Shown: positions 4,825 to 12,616 of the stretch, one piece after another
Numbering within the stretch: the first letter of the stretch is position 1
How the letters are laid out: every line of letters begins with the position of its first letter
Assembly (NCBI RefSeq): GCF_002847285.1
Contig: NZ_CP025407.1
Coordinates: 6,947,001 to 7,011,000, forward strand
DNA length: 64,000 nt
Reading direction: 5' to 3'
Source: Streptomyces sp. CMB-StM0423
GTDB taxonomy: Bacteria > Actinomycetota > Actinomycetes > Streptomycetales > Streptomycetaceae
Translations under genes and position numbers: made by a program
The notes under the pieces: model-generated
Told to the model about the DNA's origin: nothing
The model's input: the letters and a program-made list of their open reading frames with translations, nothing else
Databases searched by the model: none

Positions 4825-4854
4825 CGTTGCACCTCCCGTAAGGGTGTGACCGTA

Positions 4855-4888
4855 CGGCCCCGGTGCGCGCTGCAGCGCCCCGGGGCCG
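4855..4888 (+). terminator. Hairpin with T-tract between chpH and the long chaplin
   Basis: CGGCCCCGG (4855-4863) and CCGGGGCCG (4880-4888) are perfect inverted arms, and CTTTTT follows at 4895-4900. It could end the chpH transcript or lower read-through into the long chaplin gene. Confidence 0.55.
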
Positions 4889-4965
4889 GACGGGCTTTTT
4901 GGACGAGCGGGACGGGGACGGCCCGCCTGCTCGAGTACCCAGAGCTCAGAAGGCAGGAAAGACCC

Positions 4966-5748
4966 ATGCGACATGTCGCAAGGAAGGGCCTGTTCACCAT
5001 CGCCGCCGCGGGCGGCATGCTGGTCGCCGTAGGCGGCGCAGCGGCACAGGCCGACGCGGGCGCCGAGGGCGCGGCGCAGAACTCCCCGGGCGTCGCCTCC
5101 GGCAACACGGTTCAGGTGCCGGTGCACGCACCGGTGAACGCGTGCGGCAACACGGTGAACGTCGTCGGACTGCTCAACCCCGCGTACGGCAACACGTGCG
5201 TCAACGACGGCGGCGGCGCGAAGTCCGGCTCCGGCGGCAAGAGCGGCGGCCATGCCACCGGCGGCGCCGCGGCCCAGGGCCAGTCGTCGCAGTCCCCGGG
5301 GCTGCTCTCCGGCAACACGGTGCAGGCGCCCGCGGACGTCCCGGTGAACGCGTGCGGCAACTCCGCGAACGTCGTCGGCGTCGGCAACGCCGTCTTCGGC
5401 AACGAGTGCGGCAACGGCGCCACCCCCGACACCCCGAAGCCGCCCAAGCCCGAGGAGCCGCCGACCCCGGAGGAGCCCAACCGGCCGGACCGGCCGGACC
5501 AGCCGGACGATCCGGACCGCCCCGACGTGCCGGACACCCCCGAGCAGCCCGGCACCCCGGACCGGCCCGACGAGCCCAAGGACCGGAGCCACACCCCGCC
5601 GAACCACGAGACGCAGGCGGGCGCACCCCTCGAGCAGCTCGCGGAGACCGGCTCCGGCATCCCGGTCGGGGCCCTCATCCCGCTCAGCGGCGGCCTGCTG
5701 CTGGGCGGCGCGGTGCTCTACCGCCGCGCTCGCGCGTCCGCGGCCTGA
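4966..5748 (+). CDS. chpC: Long chaplin with two chaplin domains and LAETG sortase anchor
   Basis: The product is 260 residues. It has a signal peptide (1-28), chaplin domain 1 (about 35-75, with NACGNTVNVVG), a Gly/Ser linker, chaplin domain 2 (about 105-145, with NACGNSANVVG) and a Pro/Asp-rich spacer. The C-terminus has a LAETG sortase motif, a hydrophobic segment and an RRAR tail. The protein would be covalently attached to the cell wall by a class E sortase and would help organise short chaplins. The symbol chpC rests on adjacency to chpH as in S. coelicolor. ATG 4966 is chosen for its signal peptide and the GGCAGGAAAG upstream. Confidence 0.9.
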   Translation: MRHVARKGLFTIAAAGGMLVAVGGAAAQADAGAEGAAQNSPGVASGNTVQVPVHAPVNACGNTVNVVGLLNPAYGNTCVNDGGGAKSGSGGKSGGHATGGAAAQGQSSQSPGLLSGNTVQAPADVPVNACGNSANVVGVGNAVFGNECGNGATPDTPKPPKPEEPPTPEEPNRPDRPDQPDDPDRPDVPDTPEQPGTPDRPDEPKDRSHTPPNHETQAGAPLEQLAETGSGIPVGALIPLSGGLLLGGAVLYRRARASAA

Positions 5749-5995: not shown

Positions 5996-6184
5996 TCACC
6001 ACGTCGCTCGTACCTGTCTGATGATCCGGCGCCGCAGCCGCGCCCTGCGGCTGCCGTCGGGGTACAGCCGGAGCCGGTGCAACTCCCAGTGCCCGTACTC
6101 GGCTTGGTCGGTCAGAAGCCTCGCCGCGGCGGCCCGTGAGACTCCCCGCGGCACATAGACATCACGAAACTCGTATTCCGGCAT
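5996..6184 (-). CDS. DUF5703 family small basic protein
   Basis: The 62-residue protein (MPEYEFRDVYVPRGVSR..., ending in a run of Arg-rich residues RRARLRRRIIRQVRATW) matches the actinobacterial DUF5703 family, whose function is unknown. The start at 6184 gives the usual MPEYEF N-terminus; an in-frame ATG at 6193 would add three residues. There is no Shine-Dalgarno sequence, and a CACAAT box lies 7 nt before the start on the minus strand, so the transcript may be leaderless. It is divergent from the acidic hypothetical gene at 6232, with 47 nt between start codons. Confidence 0.8.
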   Translation of the reverse strand: MPEYEFRDVYVPRGVSRAAAARLLTDQAEYGHWELHRLRLYPDGSRRARLRRRIIRQVRATW

Positions 6185-6218
6185 CGCATCCATTGTGCGG
6201 AAAGTGCCTCGGTCCGGA

Positions 6219-6224
6219 TAGCGT
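6219..6224 (+). promoter_or_regulatory. -10 box (TAGCGT), probable leaderless start
   Basis: TAGCGT ends 7 nt before ATG 6232, the spacing expected when the transcript begins at the start codon. There is no Shine-Dalgarno sequence. Confidence 0.5.
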
Positions 6225-6231
6225 CTGCACT

Positions 6232-6990
6232 ATGTCTGATGCTGCGCAGCCTACGGCTGCCGAGGTACGCGCCGCCGCGTCGGTGCTGAAAGCCGCGATC
6301 GACCGCCACCTCGAAGCGGTCGAGCGCCGGTCTGGCGAGGAGGGCTCTGCCGTCTATGCCGCCTTCGAGGAGCTGGCAGCGGCAGCCGAGGCGTACGACG
6401 AGGTGCTGTACGAGGTCCACGACGAGGTGACCCCCTTCGAGATCCCCAGCAGCGACACGCTGCCCGCCTACACCGGGCCAGACGAGCCGGGGGCGCTCAG
6501 CGTCCTCATCCGCCGGGACTACACCGTGGCGGAGCCGCACCGGCTGCTGGCTCAGGCACAGCGCATCGCCGACCTCGACCCGGACGTCGCGGGCGGGGAC
6601 GAGACCGGCGACCGGGAGGCCGTGGGCAGCAGCCTGACGGCGGCGGTCGGCGTGCTCTTCGGCGAGTTCGAACCGGACGAGATCGCCTCGCGGCACCGGG
6701 AGTTCGGCCTCTCCGAGGGCGACTCCGCGGTGTGGGTGGGGGCGGCGGAGGAGCCGGCGGAGCCGGGGGAGTGGCTGTCGGCACCGTTCGACCAGGTCGA
6801 CCCCGAGCTGGTCATCTGCCGCTTCGACGTCAGCGCGTCGTTCGAGGACGAGCTGGACTTCGACGCGGACGACGAGGCGGACATCGAGGACGAGGACGCC
6901 GAGGGACGCGAGGACGGCCGGGTGGTCGACGCCCTCGACGACCTGGACGACGGCGACGACGAGCTGGAGCGGGTGGACACGGGCCGCTGA
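6232..6990 (+). CDS. Conserved acidic hypothetical protein
   Basis: The 252-residue protein begins MSDAAQPTAAEVRAAASVLKAAIDRHLEAVE, a predicted helical segment. A mixed region containing DEVTPFEIPSSDTLPAYTGPDEPGAL (about 70-100) follows. It ends with a very acidic Asp/Glu-rich tail (about 200-252). No catalytic motif or membrane segment is visible. Proteins like this are common in Streptomyces with no assigned role. The start at 6232 is set by the coding pattern and the -10 box just upstream; the longer open frame from 6136 overlaps the divergent gene. I do not assign a function. Confidence 0.75.
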   Translation: MSDAAQPTAAEVRAAASVLKAAIDRHLEAVERRSGEEGSAVYAAFEELAAAAEAYDEVLYEVHDEVTPFEIPSSDTLPAYTGPDEPGALSVLIRRDYTVAEPHRLLAQAQRIADLDPDVAGGDETGDREAVGSSLTAAVGVLFGEFEPDEIASRHREFGLSEGDSAVWVGAAEEPAEPGEWLSAPFDQVDPELVICRFDVSASFEDELDFDADDEADIEDEDAEGREDGRVVDALDDLDDGDDELERVDTGR

Positions 6991-7124: not shown

Positions 7125-9425
7125 TCAGGCCCGCGTCTGGGCGTCGAGCAGGCCGCGCAGCCGTGTCGTACGCCGCGGGGCCGGCACCTCCGCGAGGCGG
7201 CGGGCCAGCACGGGGCCCGCGCCGTGCACGACGGACAGGTGCCGCTCGCCGCGGCTGAACGCCGTGTACGCCCACGCGCGGCTCAGCGCCTCCTCCGCGT
7301 CCCCGGGCACCACGACCACCGCGGCCGGCCAGCGCCGCCCCACCGCCTGGTGCGCGGTCAGCGCCCAGCCGTGCCGTACGGCCTCGGCGACCCGGTCGGG
7401 ACGGACGACGACGGCGGTGCCGCCGCAGTCCAGGTGCAGCCCCGCGTCGTCACCGGAGGTGACCAGTCCGGGCACGGCGGTGCCGGGGGCGGGGACGTAG
7501 ACGACGCGGTCGCCCGCGTCGAAGCCGCCGAACGCGCCGGGGCCGGGGTTCAGCCGCTCCTTCAGCGCCGCGTTCAGCACCCGGGTGCCCGCGGCGCCGC
7601 CGTGCCCCACGGCGATCACCTGCGTGTCCGCCGCGGGCACCCCGAGGGCGCGCGGTACGGAGTCCGCGACGAGCTGCACCGTGCGGTGGACCGCCTCGCC
7701 GGGGTCCTGCACCGGGACGATCACGACCTCCTTGCCGGGCGCCGCCACGGCCTGCAGCTCGCCGGCGCCGACGCCGGAGACCAGCTCGCCGATCGGGCCC
7801 GGGTCGGGGGTGCGGGACGTCACCCGCGGGCAGACCCGCGCGGCGGTCACGTCGGCGTAGACCCGGCCGGGGCCCGCGGACTCCAGCAGCCCGGGGTCGC
7901 CGCTGAGGACCAGCCGGGCGCCGTCGGGCAGCGCCTCGACGAGGGCGGCGGCGGCCTCGGCGTCGAGCTGCGGCGCGTCCAGCACGGCCAGTACGTCGAC
8001 GGCGAGCAGGCCGTCGGCGTCGCGCCCGGGCCCCTCCCGGCCGGAGAGCAGCCCGCGCACCGTCACGGCTCCGCCGGTGGCCGGGTCCTCCGCGCCCGTT
8101 CCGGAGTGGCCTTCCGCGGCGGCCTCCGGTCCGGGGGCCGCCGCGGTGAGCAGGCCGGCCAGGCGGGCGCGGCCGTCGTCGGTGTGGGCCGCCGCGTACG
8201 TGCGCAGCCCCAGGGCGCGGGCCGCGGCGACCAGCGCCGCCGGCTCCGCGCGGGCGGCTTCGCCGCCGCTGTGCAGCACGAGCGCGCTGCCCGCGGCGGC
8301 GCGGATCAGCTCCGCGGCGGAAGGGGACGGCGCCGCACCGGCCGCGGCCTCCCACGCGTCCGCGCCCACGACGCGGACGGCGGCGTCCTCACCGTGCCCG
8401 TCGGCGTCGTCCGCCGCCGGACCCGGGGGAGCCGTGAACGTGTTGACGAGCCGGGACAGGCCGTCCGCCAGGCCCTCCTCCGCCATTGCGTAGCGCTCCA
8501 GGCCGAGCAGCAGCCGTACGGGGACCTCCTCCTCGCCGTCCTCCCCGCCTTCCGGTACGGGGGCCGCGGCGGTCGGCTCCTCGCGCTCCTCGAAGACCAG
8601 CACGCCGCCCGTCGACGCCGCCTCGCGCAGCGCCTCCTCGGCCCCCGGCACCCCGTACCCCGACAGGGCCTCCGCCAGCGCCGGGAACTCCAGCGCGGTG
8701 TGCCCCCTGAGGGCCGCCTGCGCCAGCAGCCAGCCCACCAGCGCCTCCACCCGGCGCTCGTCGCCGGGCTCCGCGGACTCCAGCAGCCCGCGGGCGAACT
8801 CGTCGGCCTGCGACGGCCGTACGCCCGGCACCGCGAGCAACTGCCACGGGTCCGCACGCAGCAACTCCGCCGCGCCTTCGCCGAACTGCCCCGCGACCCG
8901 CGCCGCAGAACCCTCGGGGACGCCCGCGCCGGCGAGCAACTGCCGTACGGCGGCGACCGCCTCGGCGCTCGGCTCCGCCGCCCGCACCGGCTCCGCCTGC
9001 TCGCCTCCGGCCCCGGCGCCCGCCTCCGGCGCCGTCCTCGCCCCGGCCGGCGGCTCCGCGCTCCGTACGGGCCGGGGCTTGGGCGCCCGCACGGGCGTGG
9101 GGAAGAACGCGGCGGCGTCCCGCTCGCCCCGCTCCACGGCCCGCACGGCGGCCAGCAGCTCCGCCGCCTTCCCGGTCAGCGCCGCCCCGCTCTCGGCGGG
9201 CGCAGCGGCCCGCCTGGGCCGCTCCTCGCCATCCTCCGTGCCCTCGCCGGCCCCACCGGCCGCCGCACTTGCGTCGCCCTCGGCACTTGCGCCGGACTCA
9301 TCCCCGCCGGACTCGCCGGGCGGCCCGCTCGCGTCGGTCTCCGCCCTCCCGCCGCCGTCAGCCGCAGCCCCCGGCCCCGTACCGCCCCCCGCCGCCGTCT
9401 CCGCGGCCTCCGGTGCGTCGTTCAC
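7125..9425 (-). CDS. RecD2-like helicase-fold protein with degenerate ATPase motifs
   Basis: This 766-residue protein has a low-complexity Ala/Gly/Glu N-terminus (1-110). A helix-hairpin-helix region follows (LLRADPWQLLAVPGVRPSQADEFARGLL), as in the RecD2 N-terminal part. The C-terminus (LTAHQAVGRRWPAAVVVVPG, then AYTAFSRGERHLSVV) is the UvrD_C_2 domain of RecD/TraA-type helicases. Where Walker A should be, the sequence reads VLHSGGEAARAEP without GKT, and motif II reads VLDAPQLD instead of a DEAS-type box. ATP hydrolysis therefore looks lost. The GTG start at 9425 overlaps the stop of the upstream aldo/keto reductase by 4 nt, implying translational coupling. The role is unknown. Confidence 0.75.
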   Translation of the reverse strand: MNDAPEAAETAAGGGTGPGAAADGGGRAETDASGPPGESGGDESGASAEGDASAAAGGAGEGTEDGEERPRRAAAPAESGAALTGKAAELLAAVRAVERGERDAAAFFPTPVRAPKPRPVRSAEPPAGARTAPEAGAGAGGEQAEPVRAAEPSAEAVAAVRQLLAGAGVPEGSAARVAGQFGEGAAELLRADPWQLLAVPGVRPSQADEFARGLLESAEPGDERRVEALVGWLLAQAALRGHTALEFPALAEALSGYGVPGAEEALREAASTGGVLVFEEREEPTAAAPVPEGGEDGEEEVPVRLLLGLERYAMAEEGLADGLSRLVNTFTAPPGPAADDADGHGEDAAVRVVGADAWEAAAGAAPSPSAAELIRAAAGSALVLHSGGEAARAEPAALVAAARALGLRTYAAAHTDDGRARLAGLLTAAAPGPEAAAEGHSGTGAEDPATGGAVTVRGLLSGREGPGRDADGLLAVDVLAVLDAPQLDAEAAAALVEALPDGARLVLSGDPGLLESAGPGRVYADVTAARVCPRVTSRTPDPGPIGELVSGVGAGELQAVAAPGKEVVIVPVQDPGEAVHRTVQLVADSVPRALGVPAADTQVIAVGHGGAAGTRVLNAALKERLNPGPGAFGGFDAGDRVVYVPAPGTAVPGLVTSGDDAGLHLDCGGTAVVVRPDRVAEAVRHGWALTAHQAVGRRWPAAVVVVPGDAEEALSRAWAYTAFSRGERHLSVVHGAGPVLARRLAEVPAPRRTTRLRGLLDAQTRA

Positions 9426-10429
9426 AGCGTGCTCCAGTCCTGATCGGGATAGCGGTGCACCGGCGCCGACACGTCGTCCAGCGCCTGGCAGATCTCGTCA
9501 GGAAGCGTAAGACCCTCCACCGACAACGCCTCCGACAACTGCTCGGCGTTGCGCGCCCCGACCAGCGGCGCCGCCACCCCCGGCCGGTCCCGTACCCACG
9601 CGAGCGACACCTCCAGCGGCGTCACCGCGAGACCGTCCGCCGCCGTGGTCACCGCGTCGACCACCCGGCTCGCCTCCTCGTCCAGGTACGGCGCGACGAA
9701 CGGCGCCAGGTGCTCCGAGGCCAGCCGCGATCCCGGCGGCGTGGCGTCGCGGTACTTGCCGGTCAGGACGCCCCGGCCGAGCGGCGACGACGGCAGCAGG
9801 CCCACACCCAGGTCCAGGGCCGCCGGCAGCACCTCCCGCTCCACCCCGCGCTGCAGCAGCGAGTACTCCATCTGCGTCGACGCCAGCCGCGTCCGCCCGC
9901 CCGCCGCGCCCGCGCCGCCGCCCGCGGCCCCGGCGAGCTGCAAGGTCGCGGCCTTGGCGAGCTGCCAGCCGCTGAAGTTGCTCACGCCCGCGTAGCGGGC
10001 CCGGCCGCTCGCTATGGCGGTGTCGAGGGCCTGGAGGGTCTCGTCGAGCGGCGTGTACGGGTCGAAGGCGTGCACCTGCCACAGGTCGACGTAGTCGGTG
10101 CCCAGCCGCTCCAGCGAGTCGTCGAGTGCGGCCAGCAGATGCCGCCGGGAGGTGTCGAAGCGGCGCTCGGGGTCGGGCACGCTGCCCGCCTTCGTGGCGA
10201 CGACGATGTCCCGCCTCGGCACGAGGTTCCCCAGCAGCCGGCCCAGCAGGTACTCCGCGCCGCCGTCCGCGTACACGTCGGCCGTGTCGACGAGCGTCCC
10301 GCCGGCCTCCCAGAACGTCTTCAGCAGTCCGGCCGCCCCGGGCTCTCCGGTGTCCCGCCCCCAGGTGAGGGTGCCCAGTCCCATGCGGGAGACGCGAAGG
10401 CCCGTGCGGCCGAGTTGCCTGTGCTCCAT
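9422..10429 (-). CDS. Aldo/keto reductase
   Basis: The 335-residue protein carries the AKR signature (LGRTGLRVSRMGLGT) and the catalytic tetrad Asp/Tyr in DTADVYADG, Lys in VATKAG and His in WQVHAFDPY. It also has the NADPH-binding GVSNFSG and SPLGRGVLTGKYR segments, and it resembles the AKR11/12 type. It would reduce an aldehyde or ketone with NADPH; the substrate is unknown. It is the first gene of a two-gene unit with the RecD2-like gene (GTGA overlap at 9422-9425). It is divergent from an LLM-class oxidoreductase. Confidence 0.88.
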   Translation of the reverse strand: MEHRQLGRTGLRVSRMGLGTLTWGRDTGEPGAAGLLKTFWEAGGTLVDTADVYADGGAEYLLGRLLGNLVPRRDIVVATKAGSVPDPERRFDTSRRHLLAALDDSLERLGTDYVDLWQVHAFDPYTPLDETLQALDTAIASGRARYAGVSNFSGWQLAKAATLQLAGAAGGGAGAAGGRTRLASTQMEYSLLQRGVEREVLPAALDLGVGLLPSSPLGRGVLTGKYRDATPPGSRLASEHLAPFVAPYLDEEASRVVDAVTTAADGLAVTPLEVSLAWVRDRPGVAAPLVGARNAEQLSEALSVEGLTLPDEICQALDDVSAPVHRYPDQDWSTL

Positions 10430-10552: not shown

Positions 10553-11602
10553 ATGCGGCTCGGGATCAACCTCGGCTACTGGGGCGCCGGCATGGACGCC
10601 GACAACCTCGCCGTCGCGCAGGAGGCGGACCGCCTCGGCTACGAGGTGTGCTGGGCGGCCGAGGCGTACGGCTCCGACGCGGCCACCGTGCTGAGCTGGG
10701 TCGCCGCCAGGACCGAGCGCATCGACGTGGGCTCGGCGATCTTCCAGATCCCGGCCCGCGCCCCCGCCATGACCGCGATGACCGCCGCCACCCTCGACTC
10801 GCTCACCGAGGGCCGCTTCCGCCTCGGCATCGGCGTCTCCGGACCGCAGGTCTCCGAGGGCTGGTACGGGGTGGAGTTCGGCAAACCGCTCGCCCGCACC
10901 CGCGAGTACGTGGAGATCGTGCGCAAGGCGCTGTCGCGCGAGCGGCTGTCGTACGCGGGCGAGCACTGGACGCTGCCGCTGCCCGACGGGGCGGGGAAGC
11001 CCATCAAGCTGACCGTGCACCCCGTACGCGAGCACATCCCCGTCTACATCGCCGCCATCGGCCCGAAGAACCTGGAGCAGACCGGCGAGATCGCCGAGGG
11101 CGCCCTGCTGGTCTTCTACTCGCCCGAGCACGCCGAGGAGACCACCCTGCGCCACGTGCGTGCCGGGCGGGCGAAGGCCGGCAAGGACCTGGCGGGCTTC
11201 GACATCGTGCCCACGGTCCCCCTGGCCCTCGGCGACGACGTGGCCGCGCTCGCCGACGTCTTCCGCCCGTACACCGCCCTGTACGTCGGCGGCATGGGCA
11301 GCGCCAAGCAGAACTTCTACAACCGCCTCGCCGGCCGGATGGGGTACGAGCGCGAGGCCGCCGAGATCCAGTCCGCGTACCTCGCCGGCGACAAGGCCGC
11401 CGCGGCCGCCGCCGTGCCGCAGGACCTGATCGACGCCACCACGCTGCTCGGCCCGGTGGAGCGGATCGCGGACCGGATGCGGGCGTACGCCGAGGCGGGG
11501 GTGACGTCGCTGTCGCTGGCGCCGTCCGGCTTCACGCGGGAGGAGCGCATCGCGGGCGTACGCGCCGGAGTGGAGGCGCTGGAGCGCGCCGGCCTCGCCT
11601 GA
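10553..11602 (+). CDS. LLM-class F420/flavin-dependent oxidoreductase
   Basis: The 349-residue protein has the luciferase-like monooxygenase barrel. It begins MRLGINLGYWGAGMD and contains ALSWV-like and TERIDVGSAIFQIPARAPAM segments, then FRLGIGVSGP and VYIAAIGPKNLEQTGEIAEG. These match the F420-dependent LLM group common in actinobacteria. The reaction and substrate cannot be read from the sequence. GGGAGG precedes ATG 10553. A -10-like TAGAGT at 10481-10486 would give a leader of about 60 nt. Confidence 0.85.
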   Translation: MRLGINLGYWGAGMDADNLAVAQEADRLGYEVCWAAEAYGSDAATVLSWVAARTERIDVGSAIFQIPARAPAMTAMTAATLDSLTEGRFRLGIGVSGPQVSEGWYGVEFGKPLARTREYVEIVRKALSRERLSYAGEHWTLPLPDGAGKPIKLTVHPVREHIPVYIAAIGPKNLEQTGEIAEGALLVFYSPEHAEETTLRHVRAGRAKAGKDLAGFDIVPTVPLALGDDVAALADVFRPYTALYVGGMGSAKQNFYNRLAGRMGYEREAAEIQSAYLAGDKAAAAAAVPQDLIDATTLLGPVERIADRMRAYAEAGVTSLSLAPSGFTREERIAGVRAGVEALERAGLA

Positions 11603-11642: not shown

Positions 11643-11682
11643 CGGCCGTGGTGGGGGCTCGGGGTCCTCCCCGCCACGGCCG
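11643..11682 (+). terminator. Terminator hairpin after the LLM oxidoreductase
   Basis: CGGCCGTGG (11643-11651) and CCACGGCCG (11674-11682) are perfect arms with a GC-rich interior. The remaining 11690-11824 holds the leader of the next gene. Confidence 0.6.
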
Positions 11683-11824
11683 TCATCCCACCCAACGCGC
11701 CGTCCCCGCATGGGTTACGGATCGCCCGCATGGCGGATGGTGCGCACCGCGGGTGTTGCGTCATGCGCATCCCCGTCATTCACTCGGATACGGGTGTATT
11801 CCGGCAGTGAAAGGCGACGGTGAC

Positions 11825-12616
11825 ATGCTCTCGGCCAAGGACCTGTACAAGGAGATCCTCGACAACGACGACACCTTCCGGCTGTTCTGCTCCATCGCCG
11901 CCGCCGGGGAGGCCCAGGGCGGCTGGGAGAACGCCCGCATCTCCGCGCTCGTCCCCGACTCGTACCGGGAGCTGGCCCCCAAGGTGGCCCGGCACGGCGC
12001 CGACGAGGACAAGCACGGCCGCATCTTCAACGCCCTGATGAAGAAGCGCGGCCTGGAGCCGGTGGCCGTCCCCGCCGAGACCGACTACACGATGCTGCTG
12101 GAGGGCATCGGCATCGGCCTCGCCCACGACCAGCTCCGCAGGGACGGGCAGCTCACCGAGGCCGACATCATCACGTACCTCGCGCACAGCAGGGTCACCG
12201 AGCAGCGGGCGTCGGACCAGATGCGGATGCTCCTCAAGTACTTCGGCGACCACCCGGACATCGGCCGCGCGGTGCGGATGATCTCCCACGACGAGGACAA
12301 CCACCTCGCGTACTGCCACGAGGAACTGCTCGCCATGGCAGCGCACGGCCACGGCCGCCGCGTCCAGGCGGCGCTGCGGGAGGCGGCGCTCGCGGAGATC
12401 CGGGTGTACCGGGACGTGAGCCACGCGGTGATGGCGCACATGGGGCGGATCCTGAAGTGGTCCCGCGCCAGGCGCGCGCTGCTGTCCGCGGGCATCGACG
12501 CGATGTACGCGTACGAGCGCGCCGGCGGCTGGCGGCGGATGGTCAGGCTGCGGATGCCGGAGTTCCGCGACGCCCTCGGCGGGCCGCCGCTGCGCACCGC
12601 GGCCGAGTTCGCCTGA
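11825..12616 (+). CDS. Ferritin-like domain protein
   Basis: The 263-residue, mostly helical protein has spaced carboxylate/His motifs typical of ferritin-like four-helix bundles. These are E at GEAQGGWEN, DEDKH (about residue 62), EQRASDQ and DEDNHLAYCHEE (about 158-168). It may bind a di-iron centre; oxidase or storage activity is unproven. ATG 11825 is preceded by AAAGGCGACG. Upstream in-frame sequence to 11648 is non-coding in character. The gene is convergent with corA. Confidence 0.7.
   Translation: MLSAKDLYKEILDNDDTFRLFCSIAAAGEAQGGWENARISALVPDSYRELAPKVARHGADEDKHGRIFNALMKKRGLEPVAVPAETDYTMLLEGIGIGLAHDQLRRDGQLTEADIITYLAHSRVTEQRASDQMRMLLKYFGDHPDIGRAVRMISHDEDNHLAYCHEELLAMAAHGHGRRVQAALREAALAEIRVYRDVSHAVMAHMGRILKWSRARRALLSAGIDAMYAYERAGGWRRMVRLRMPEFRDALGGPPLRTAAEFA

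Follow-up and report, generated by a model that had tools for sequence, protein, structure and literature searches.

RecC and AddB, in the RecBCD and AddAB complexes, have inactive helicase folds and act as non-motor scaffolds; both are of the SF1A/UvrD-like type and have known partners, unlike the protein considered here. To our knowledge, bacterial pseudohelicases for which the states before and after motor loss are both clear appear to be rare. In TraI, as reported in PMC5422253, a vestigial helicase domain with a RecD2-like fold (5n8o) lacks Walker A and B yet is still in use, binding single-stranded DNA; that domain is part of a larger protein that also carries a relaxase and an active helicase, whereas the gene described below is a separate, chromosomal, stand-alone open reading frame. 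In Deinococcus radiodurans PriA, as described in PMC4504706, the motifs were likewise lost in a lineage and the gene retained, with DNA binding kept and ATPase activity absent; there, by contrast, the protein belongs to the PriA family, has a role in replication restart, and has had its activity measured, whereas the present protein is known from sequence. The pseudohelicase as a kind of protein is already known. What appears to be new is an order-wide, stand-alone dead RecD2 together with intact relatives of the same subfamily linked to an aldo/keto reductase (AKR), a combination not found among the titles and abstract openings that literature searches of open-licence papers listed.

The window, i.e. 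the whole 64,000-nucleotide stretch of Streptomyces DNA that was analysed, encodes this protein immediately downstream of the AKR gene:

7125-9425, minus strand: RecD2-type helicase without ATPase motifs (766-residue open reading frame, GTG start; assigned by homology and fold match)
9422-10429, minus strand: aldo/keto reductase gene, upstream, with a GTGA overlap (PF00248, 207.8 bits)

The helicase frame has 766 codons and, in the open reading frame reading, zero internal stops, and the TGA stop of the AKR gene shares GTGA (9422-9425) with its GTG start; in both respects the locus is as the original prediction had described it. Within the protein the following regions are distinguished:

8976-9425, minus strand: N-terminal stretch, residues 1-150, low complexity and mostly predicted disordered (from pLDDT; pN/pS 0.59)
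8697-8966, minus strand: HHH_RecD2 domain, residues 154-243 (PF14490 at 156-243; pN/pS 0.32)
8226-8285, minus strand: degenerate Walker A/motif I, residues 381-400 (aligned relatives lack the Lys; pN/pS 0.21)
7962-7991, minus strand: degenerate motif II (Walker B), residues 479-488, LAVLDAPQLD (from the 35-row alignment)
7851-7916, minus strand: motif III region, residues 504-525, GD present and Gln lost in the window protein (from the alignment)
7221-7748, minus strand: domains 2A and 2B, residues 560-735, with motifs V and VI, the best conserved part (from pN/pS and identity to intact relatives)

With RecD2 (TIGR01448; D. radiodurans structures 3gp8, 3gpl and 3e1s) the protein shares homology over the HHH_RecD2, 1A, 2A and SH3-like 2B domains, and RecD2 is its best fold match; it differs in lacking the P-loop Lys and the Walker B Asp, in apparently having its N-terminal part replaced by a low-complexity stretch and in belonging to a separate clade. 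Two regions had been proposed as retained, of which HHH_RecD2 is clearly present (Pfam, residues 156-243, 46.1 bits, cut-off 27) and UvrD_C_2 (residues 685-733) falls slightly below its threshold (26.8 versus 27.4 bits). AAA_30 is likewise sub-threshold (17.9 bits, cut-off 27), and the TIGR01448 score, 96.9 bits for the protein and 68.9 bits for the gene in the genome scan, lies far under the curated cut-off of 500. No relaxase family is above cut-off in Pfam and TIGR scans of the protein, TraA_Ti giving just 12.7 bits. A profile built from 33 aligned rows matches both the RecD2 of the same genome (639 columns, probability 99.6) and that of D. radiodurans (E value 3.6e-22).

The fold predicted with AlphaFold2 is of modest confidence: mean pLDDT is 68.7 for the whole protein and reaches 72.9 in the model of residues 150-766, with parts of 2A scoring low. 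For both models RecD2 structures 3gp8, 3gpl and 3e1s head the fold matches (Z 19.3-20.4), followed by RecD of RecBCD (Z 15.6-18.9, full subunit) and other SF1 proteins near 13. On superposition, for which the RecD2-DNA structure 3gp8 is the best match, the rmsd is 6.9-10.3 Å over 441-506 residues, the high values probably reflecting an uncertain domain arrangement in the models. Chance similarity to RecD2 was ruled out by the 639-column profile match together with the fold match to 3gp8. The pLDDT is below 50 at residues 1-83 and 109-148, predicted disorder sparing about 84-108; this N-terminal stretch would stand where RecD2 has its OB/first HhH part.

The genome also encodes a full RecD2 elsewhere (847 bits, TIGR01448), comparison with which defines the changes in the motor. 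Where the canonical protein has VLTGGPGCGKS at motif I, the window protein has VLHSGGEAARAEP and the P-loop lysine is gone; where it has VVDEASMLD at motif II, the window protein has VLDAPQLD, the Asp of DE being replaced by Leu and the Glu by Asp. Both motif readings of the original prediction thus stand. In motif III the GD is present and the Gln lost, and the motif VI Arg is present. An SF1 motor lacking both the P-loop lysine and the Walker B Asp is not expected to hydrolyse ATP, and the window protein is predicted to lack ATPase activity.

The relatives comprise 34 named loci, 33 titled Streptomyces and one titled Streptosporangium (L028), and 28 further loci with dead copies, i.e. copies without the ATPase motifs. 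The 33-row alignment adds 32 named loci to the window protein, omitting L026 and L028, in which the gene is truncated by the contig end; not one row matches the P-loop pattern GxxxxGK[ST] or the DE pattern. L026 lacks the lysine too, both L026 and L028 lack the motif II Asp, and none of the 28 further copies matches GxxxxGK[ST]. Over the named set and the 28 further loci, the P-loop Lys is absent from 62 of 62 copies (those with the P-loop region present, plus L105, in which that region is deleted) and the Walker B Asp from 63 of 63. In the alignment of 35 dead rows, the Lys, its Ser/Thr and the Walker B Asp are missing jointly from every row, and most rows have P-loop deletions. The position of the former DE Glu stays acidic throughout (Glu in 4, Asp in 31), the motif III Asp is present in 33/35 and the motif VI Arg in 30/35; at motif V the His is kept in 22/35 and the Gln in 3/35, so that the RecD2 path for single-stranded DNA is altered. 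Within the replaced motif I, His385 and Gly387 are invariant throughout the 33-row alignment. The degree of loss varies: L079 still has the motif II Glu and GDPDQLP of motif III, three loci of family f3 (L080-L082) have also lost the motif VI Arg, and L105 has a deletion that takes out most of the stretch between P-loop and motif II but leaves 2A/2B and the AKR. Chance or a frame error was rejected as the source of the altered motifs, which are common to all dead-clade relatives read.

Intact members of the subfamily are found in other families of the class. A scan of 296 genomes gave sub-cut-off matches of ~325-440 bits in f9, f12, f14, f16, f18, f20 and f23, the motifs being read in nine loci: L101, L102, L114 and L115 (f20) and L106, L107, L108, L116 and L117 (f9, f14, f16). 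All 13 checked motif residues are present in 9/9 of these, and the motifs are also intact in canonical RecD2 (8/8) and in second-copy RecD2 (9/9). The signature QLVTDSIPRA is matched by pattern in five of seven intact relatives and was read by eye in L101 and L102. Among the matches listed are 12 genomes of f16, several of them incomplete, each with this hit and none with a RecD2 over the cut-off; the motifs were read in 3/12, and it may be that some lineages, these included, depend on the intact subfamily form alone.

A tree was calculated from 228 columns C-terminal to motif IV with 59 of 68 rows, nine from represented groups having been dropped. All 29 dead rows fall into a single clade (support 100/99) and group with the nine intact subfamily rows (100/99), so that the AKR-linked and f20 helicases share a clade with the dead form but have intact motifs; canonical and second-copy RecD2 stand apart (99/99). 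With the motif V/VI columns removed the dead clade is recovered at 97/98, with a long-branch warning; the tree gives no firm order of branching between this clade and the intact groups. Relatives with intact GKT and DE motifs, which the original prediction had regarded as evidence against a dead protein, do exist, yet outside the dead clade; they therefore help to explain the dead state as a loss and do not refute it. The existence of an intact subfamily beside one dead clade with a diverged domain 1A argues that an active helicase lost its motor and was kept. The tree favours a single event, and the motor was probably lost once. Parallel losses in separate lineages may have occurred, given that motif II remnants vary between lineages (Glu in 4/35 rows), that dead copies in f10 and f19 sit outside the window's order and that long branches are flagged; the grouping of the dead rows in one clade speaks against this. 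In a quick AKR tree the AKRs linked to intact helicases form one group (91), with those of L079, L100 and L105 near it, a placement that makes this tree not decisive on a single loss.

RecD2 scores above the cut-off in 61/61 sampled genomes of the window's family, representing 17 genera, and the motor role can thus be covered. The weaker second RecD2-type match is dead in 17/17 sampled genera, as read in at least one locus for each genus rather than in all 61 genomes, and nearly all copies have the same neighbours; the copies read were the window's and others for g1, 20 fetched loci and, in addition, g12. Outside the family, dead copies were read in two families of the order, f2 and f3 (L079-L082), and, outside the order, in f19 and f10 of the class (L099, L100, L105). 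The available text of PMC1193525 describes RecD2 in both Streptomyces genomes studied and reports no second, dead copy. Several actinomycete genomes have a second intact RecD2 distinct from the canonical one (L083-L090, L103). An origin of the dead form from such second copies (f3, f1 g14, f19) was rejected, since these loci are intact; six second copies placed in the tree group with canonical RecD2, against an origin there. A plasmid origin was also rejected: the 48 plasmid records all have <60% identity, zero cover 80% of the query, coverage is 33-34% among the best 20 of the 48, and the top match (Nonomuraea) carries an intact canonical RecD2 there. In one genome of the same genus (G009, contig C1 3277071-3279258) the match to canonical RecD2 is broken into two parts lying in different open frames, a possible frameshift or split gene.

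The dead gene is under purifying selection. Over 17 close pairs, which share lineages and are hence non-independent, whole-gene dN/dS is 0.16-0.50 and that of the AKR 0.05-0.27, lower in all 17. Regional pN/pS, pooled over 16 pairs, is 0.59 for the N-terminal stretch and 0.32 for both HHH and 1A as a whole, then 0.21 for former motif I, 0.15 for motifs II-III, 0.14 for 2A/2B (residues 560-766) and, lowest of all, 0.10 for motifs V-VI. The values for former motifs I and II-III indicate that the replaced motifs are themselves conserved. In-match stop codons were absent from the 20 relatives fetched, and a recent pseudogene was rejected on the dN/dS range and the purifying selection in the replaced motifs. 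With conserved motif loss and the open frames added to these observations, the idea of a maintained pseudohelicase put forward in the original prediction gains support: judged by its sequence, the protein would count as a pseudohelicase in the working sense of a helicase fold, lineage-wide loss of ATPase motifs and a gene under selection.

Where the divergence fell is also informative. Mean identity between dead and intact copies is 35% for 1A, 50% for 2A+2B and 41% for HHH, versus 68%, 68% and 45% among intact groups; for 1A the intact relatives and canonical RecD2 share 53%, above the dead-intact value. It would appear that the motor half was released and the other half held more firmly. Mean net charge differs between dead and intact copies in HHH (-3.2 versus +0.6) and 2A+2B (+0.1 versus -3.3), and over residues 154-766 is -29.8 for dead, -20.2 for intact and -1.6 for canonical proteins. 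For the DNA-binding scaffold suggested in the original prediction, whose fold is kept, these shifts point both ways, HHH against predicted DNA binding and 2A+2B for it.

The surroundings of the gene are conserved as well, including two further neighbours:

10553-11602, plus strand: divergent F420-dependent LLM oxidoreductase, syntenic (TIGR03559, 395.1 bits, cut-off 335)
6136-6990, plus strand: acidic protein, convergent neighbour (no Pfam match at E up to 1; in 34/34 named loci)

Among the 34 named loci the AKR and the LLM oxidoreductase are each present in 32, and the acidic protein in all; at the two loci without an AKR match there is a contig edge. The GTGA overlap occurs in 31 of the 32 with an AKR match. 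In the 28 further dead loci the AKR is found in 26, with the helicase start overlapping the AKR stop in 8; in L100 the AKR lies ~3 kb from the dead helicase, and in L067 none was found within 11 kb. For intact helicases an AKR lies upstream and near in 5/9 (L106, L107, L108, L116, L117), overlapping as GTGA in L107 and as TGATG in L106 and adjoining in L116; in L108 and L117 the distance is ~1.1 kb and an open reading frame intervenes. The regions read around the four f20 genes gave no AKR match. In L117 the intervening frame looks by eye like a SAM-dependent methyltransferase. The AKR had been called odd company for a DNA protein, but the pairing is not accidental, the AKR being near dead and intact versions in several families. 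Because AKR genes lie near dead copies across families, with few overlaps outside the named set, the pairing is old and the tight overlap mainly a Streptomyces trait.

Taken together, the evidence makes it reasonably likely that the protein is a motorless RecD2-type helicase kept as a non-motor binding scaffold for DNA or a partner. The ancestor would have been an active helicase of an SF1B, RecD2-related subfamily whose genes sit close to an AKR gene in several of the class's families; a lineage including Streptomyces would have lost the P-loop and the Walker B Asp, and some branches further ATPase residues, with the RecD2 fold persisting after motor loss. The resulting protein may work without ATP as a static binding module, in which 2A/2B with HHH would hold DNA, single-stranded or at a junction, or a partner protein; by analogy with the known cases it is probably a non-motor subunit that holds DNA or a partner, and it probably has an accessory role at DNA, as a scaffold or regulator. 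Its synthesis in Streptomyces may be tied to that of the AKR via coupled translation. Set against a scaffold are the acidity of HHH and of the protein overall, the altered motif V, the modest AlphaFold confidence, an AKR link that is non-universal (L067, L100), and the acidic Glu position in 35/35 rows with the motif VI Arg in 30/35, which could mean a remaining pocket.

Such a pocket would be used if the altered site bound a nucleotide or small ligand as a switch, with no motor. This is unlikely: the acidic residue at the DE Glu position (35/35), the motif III Asp (33/35), the motif VI Arg (30/35) and a replaced motif I that is conserved, with invariant His385 and Gly387 in 33 rows, would fit, but the P-loop positions have neither Lys nor Ser/Thr in all 35 rows, most rows have loop deletions and the motif VI Arg is lost in L080-L082. 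Retention of that Arg and of the overall fold could even be read as a sign of an active ATPase with a divergent P-loop, misread as dead; that is hardly credible with the P-loop Lys, its Ser/Thr and the Walker B Asp jointly gone in 35/35 rows and with domain 1A the most diverged part.

A decaying gene, redundant with canonical RecD2 and drifting to loss, could account for the presence of RecD2 in 61/61 family genomes, the variation of motif I-III residues by lineage, the L105 copy with much of domain 1A deleted and a dN/dS above that of the AKR in 17/17 pairs. Drift would not, however, preserve 2A/2B across such a span, and presence in 17/17 sampled genera and four other families, a pN/pS of 0.10-0.21 in the former motifs and the lack of stops in the match in 20 copies fetched leave decay very unlikely, constraint having already largely refuted it. 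If, instead, the DNA role was abandoned and the fold is a relic, the protein may be a partner of the AKR, e.g. a chaperone, an inhibitor or part of a redox-sensing complex. Its strong acidity and the position of the AKR upstream, with stop and start overlapping in 31 of the 32 Streptomyces loci with an AKR match, are in keeping with this; it is nonetheless quite improbable, as other families have intact helicases close to this AKR, ~1.1 kb and a frame separate the two genes in L117 and L108, L067 has no AKR match in 11 kb, and constraint is strongest in motifs V-VI.

Returning to the scaffold reading, it is conceivable, though rather doubtful, that the dead helicase is a fixed subunit of an unrecognised actinomycete DNA-processing complex, holding DNA for a separate motor, perhaps the cell's canonical RecD2, with the coupled AKR tying the complex to redox state. 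Its role would then resemble that of RecC, which serves RecB and RecD, and the class would preserve a natural series, from motor to motorless, of one machine. More generally, the occurrence of dead and active versions near the same AKR in different families makes the cost and use of motor loss testable. For annotation, the copies should be treated as RecD2 relatives that are, by sequence, not helicases.

Two other plus-strand frames lie nearby. That at 4846-5748 shows, by eye, GNTVQVP-like repeats and an LAETG-like sorting signal at its C terminus; its product, matched in 33/34 named loci, we take to be a chaplin-type surface protein. The frame at 11648-12616, with weak COQ7-like and DUF6052 matches alone, recurs in many named loci.
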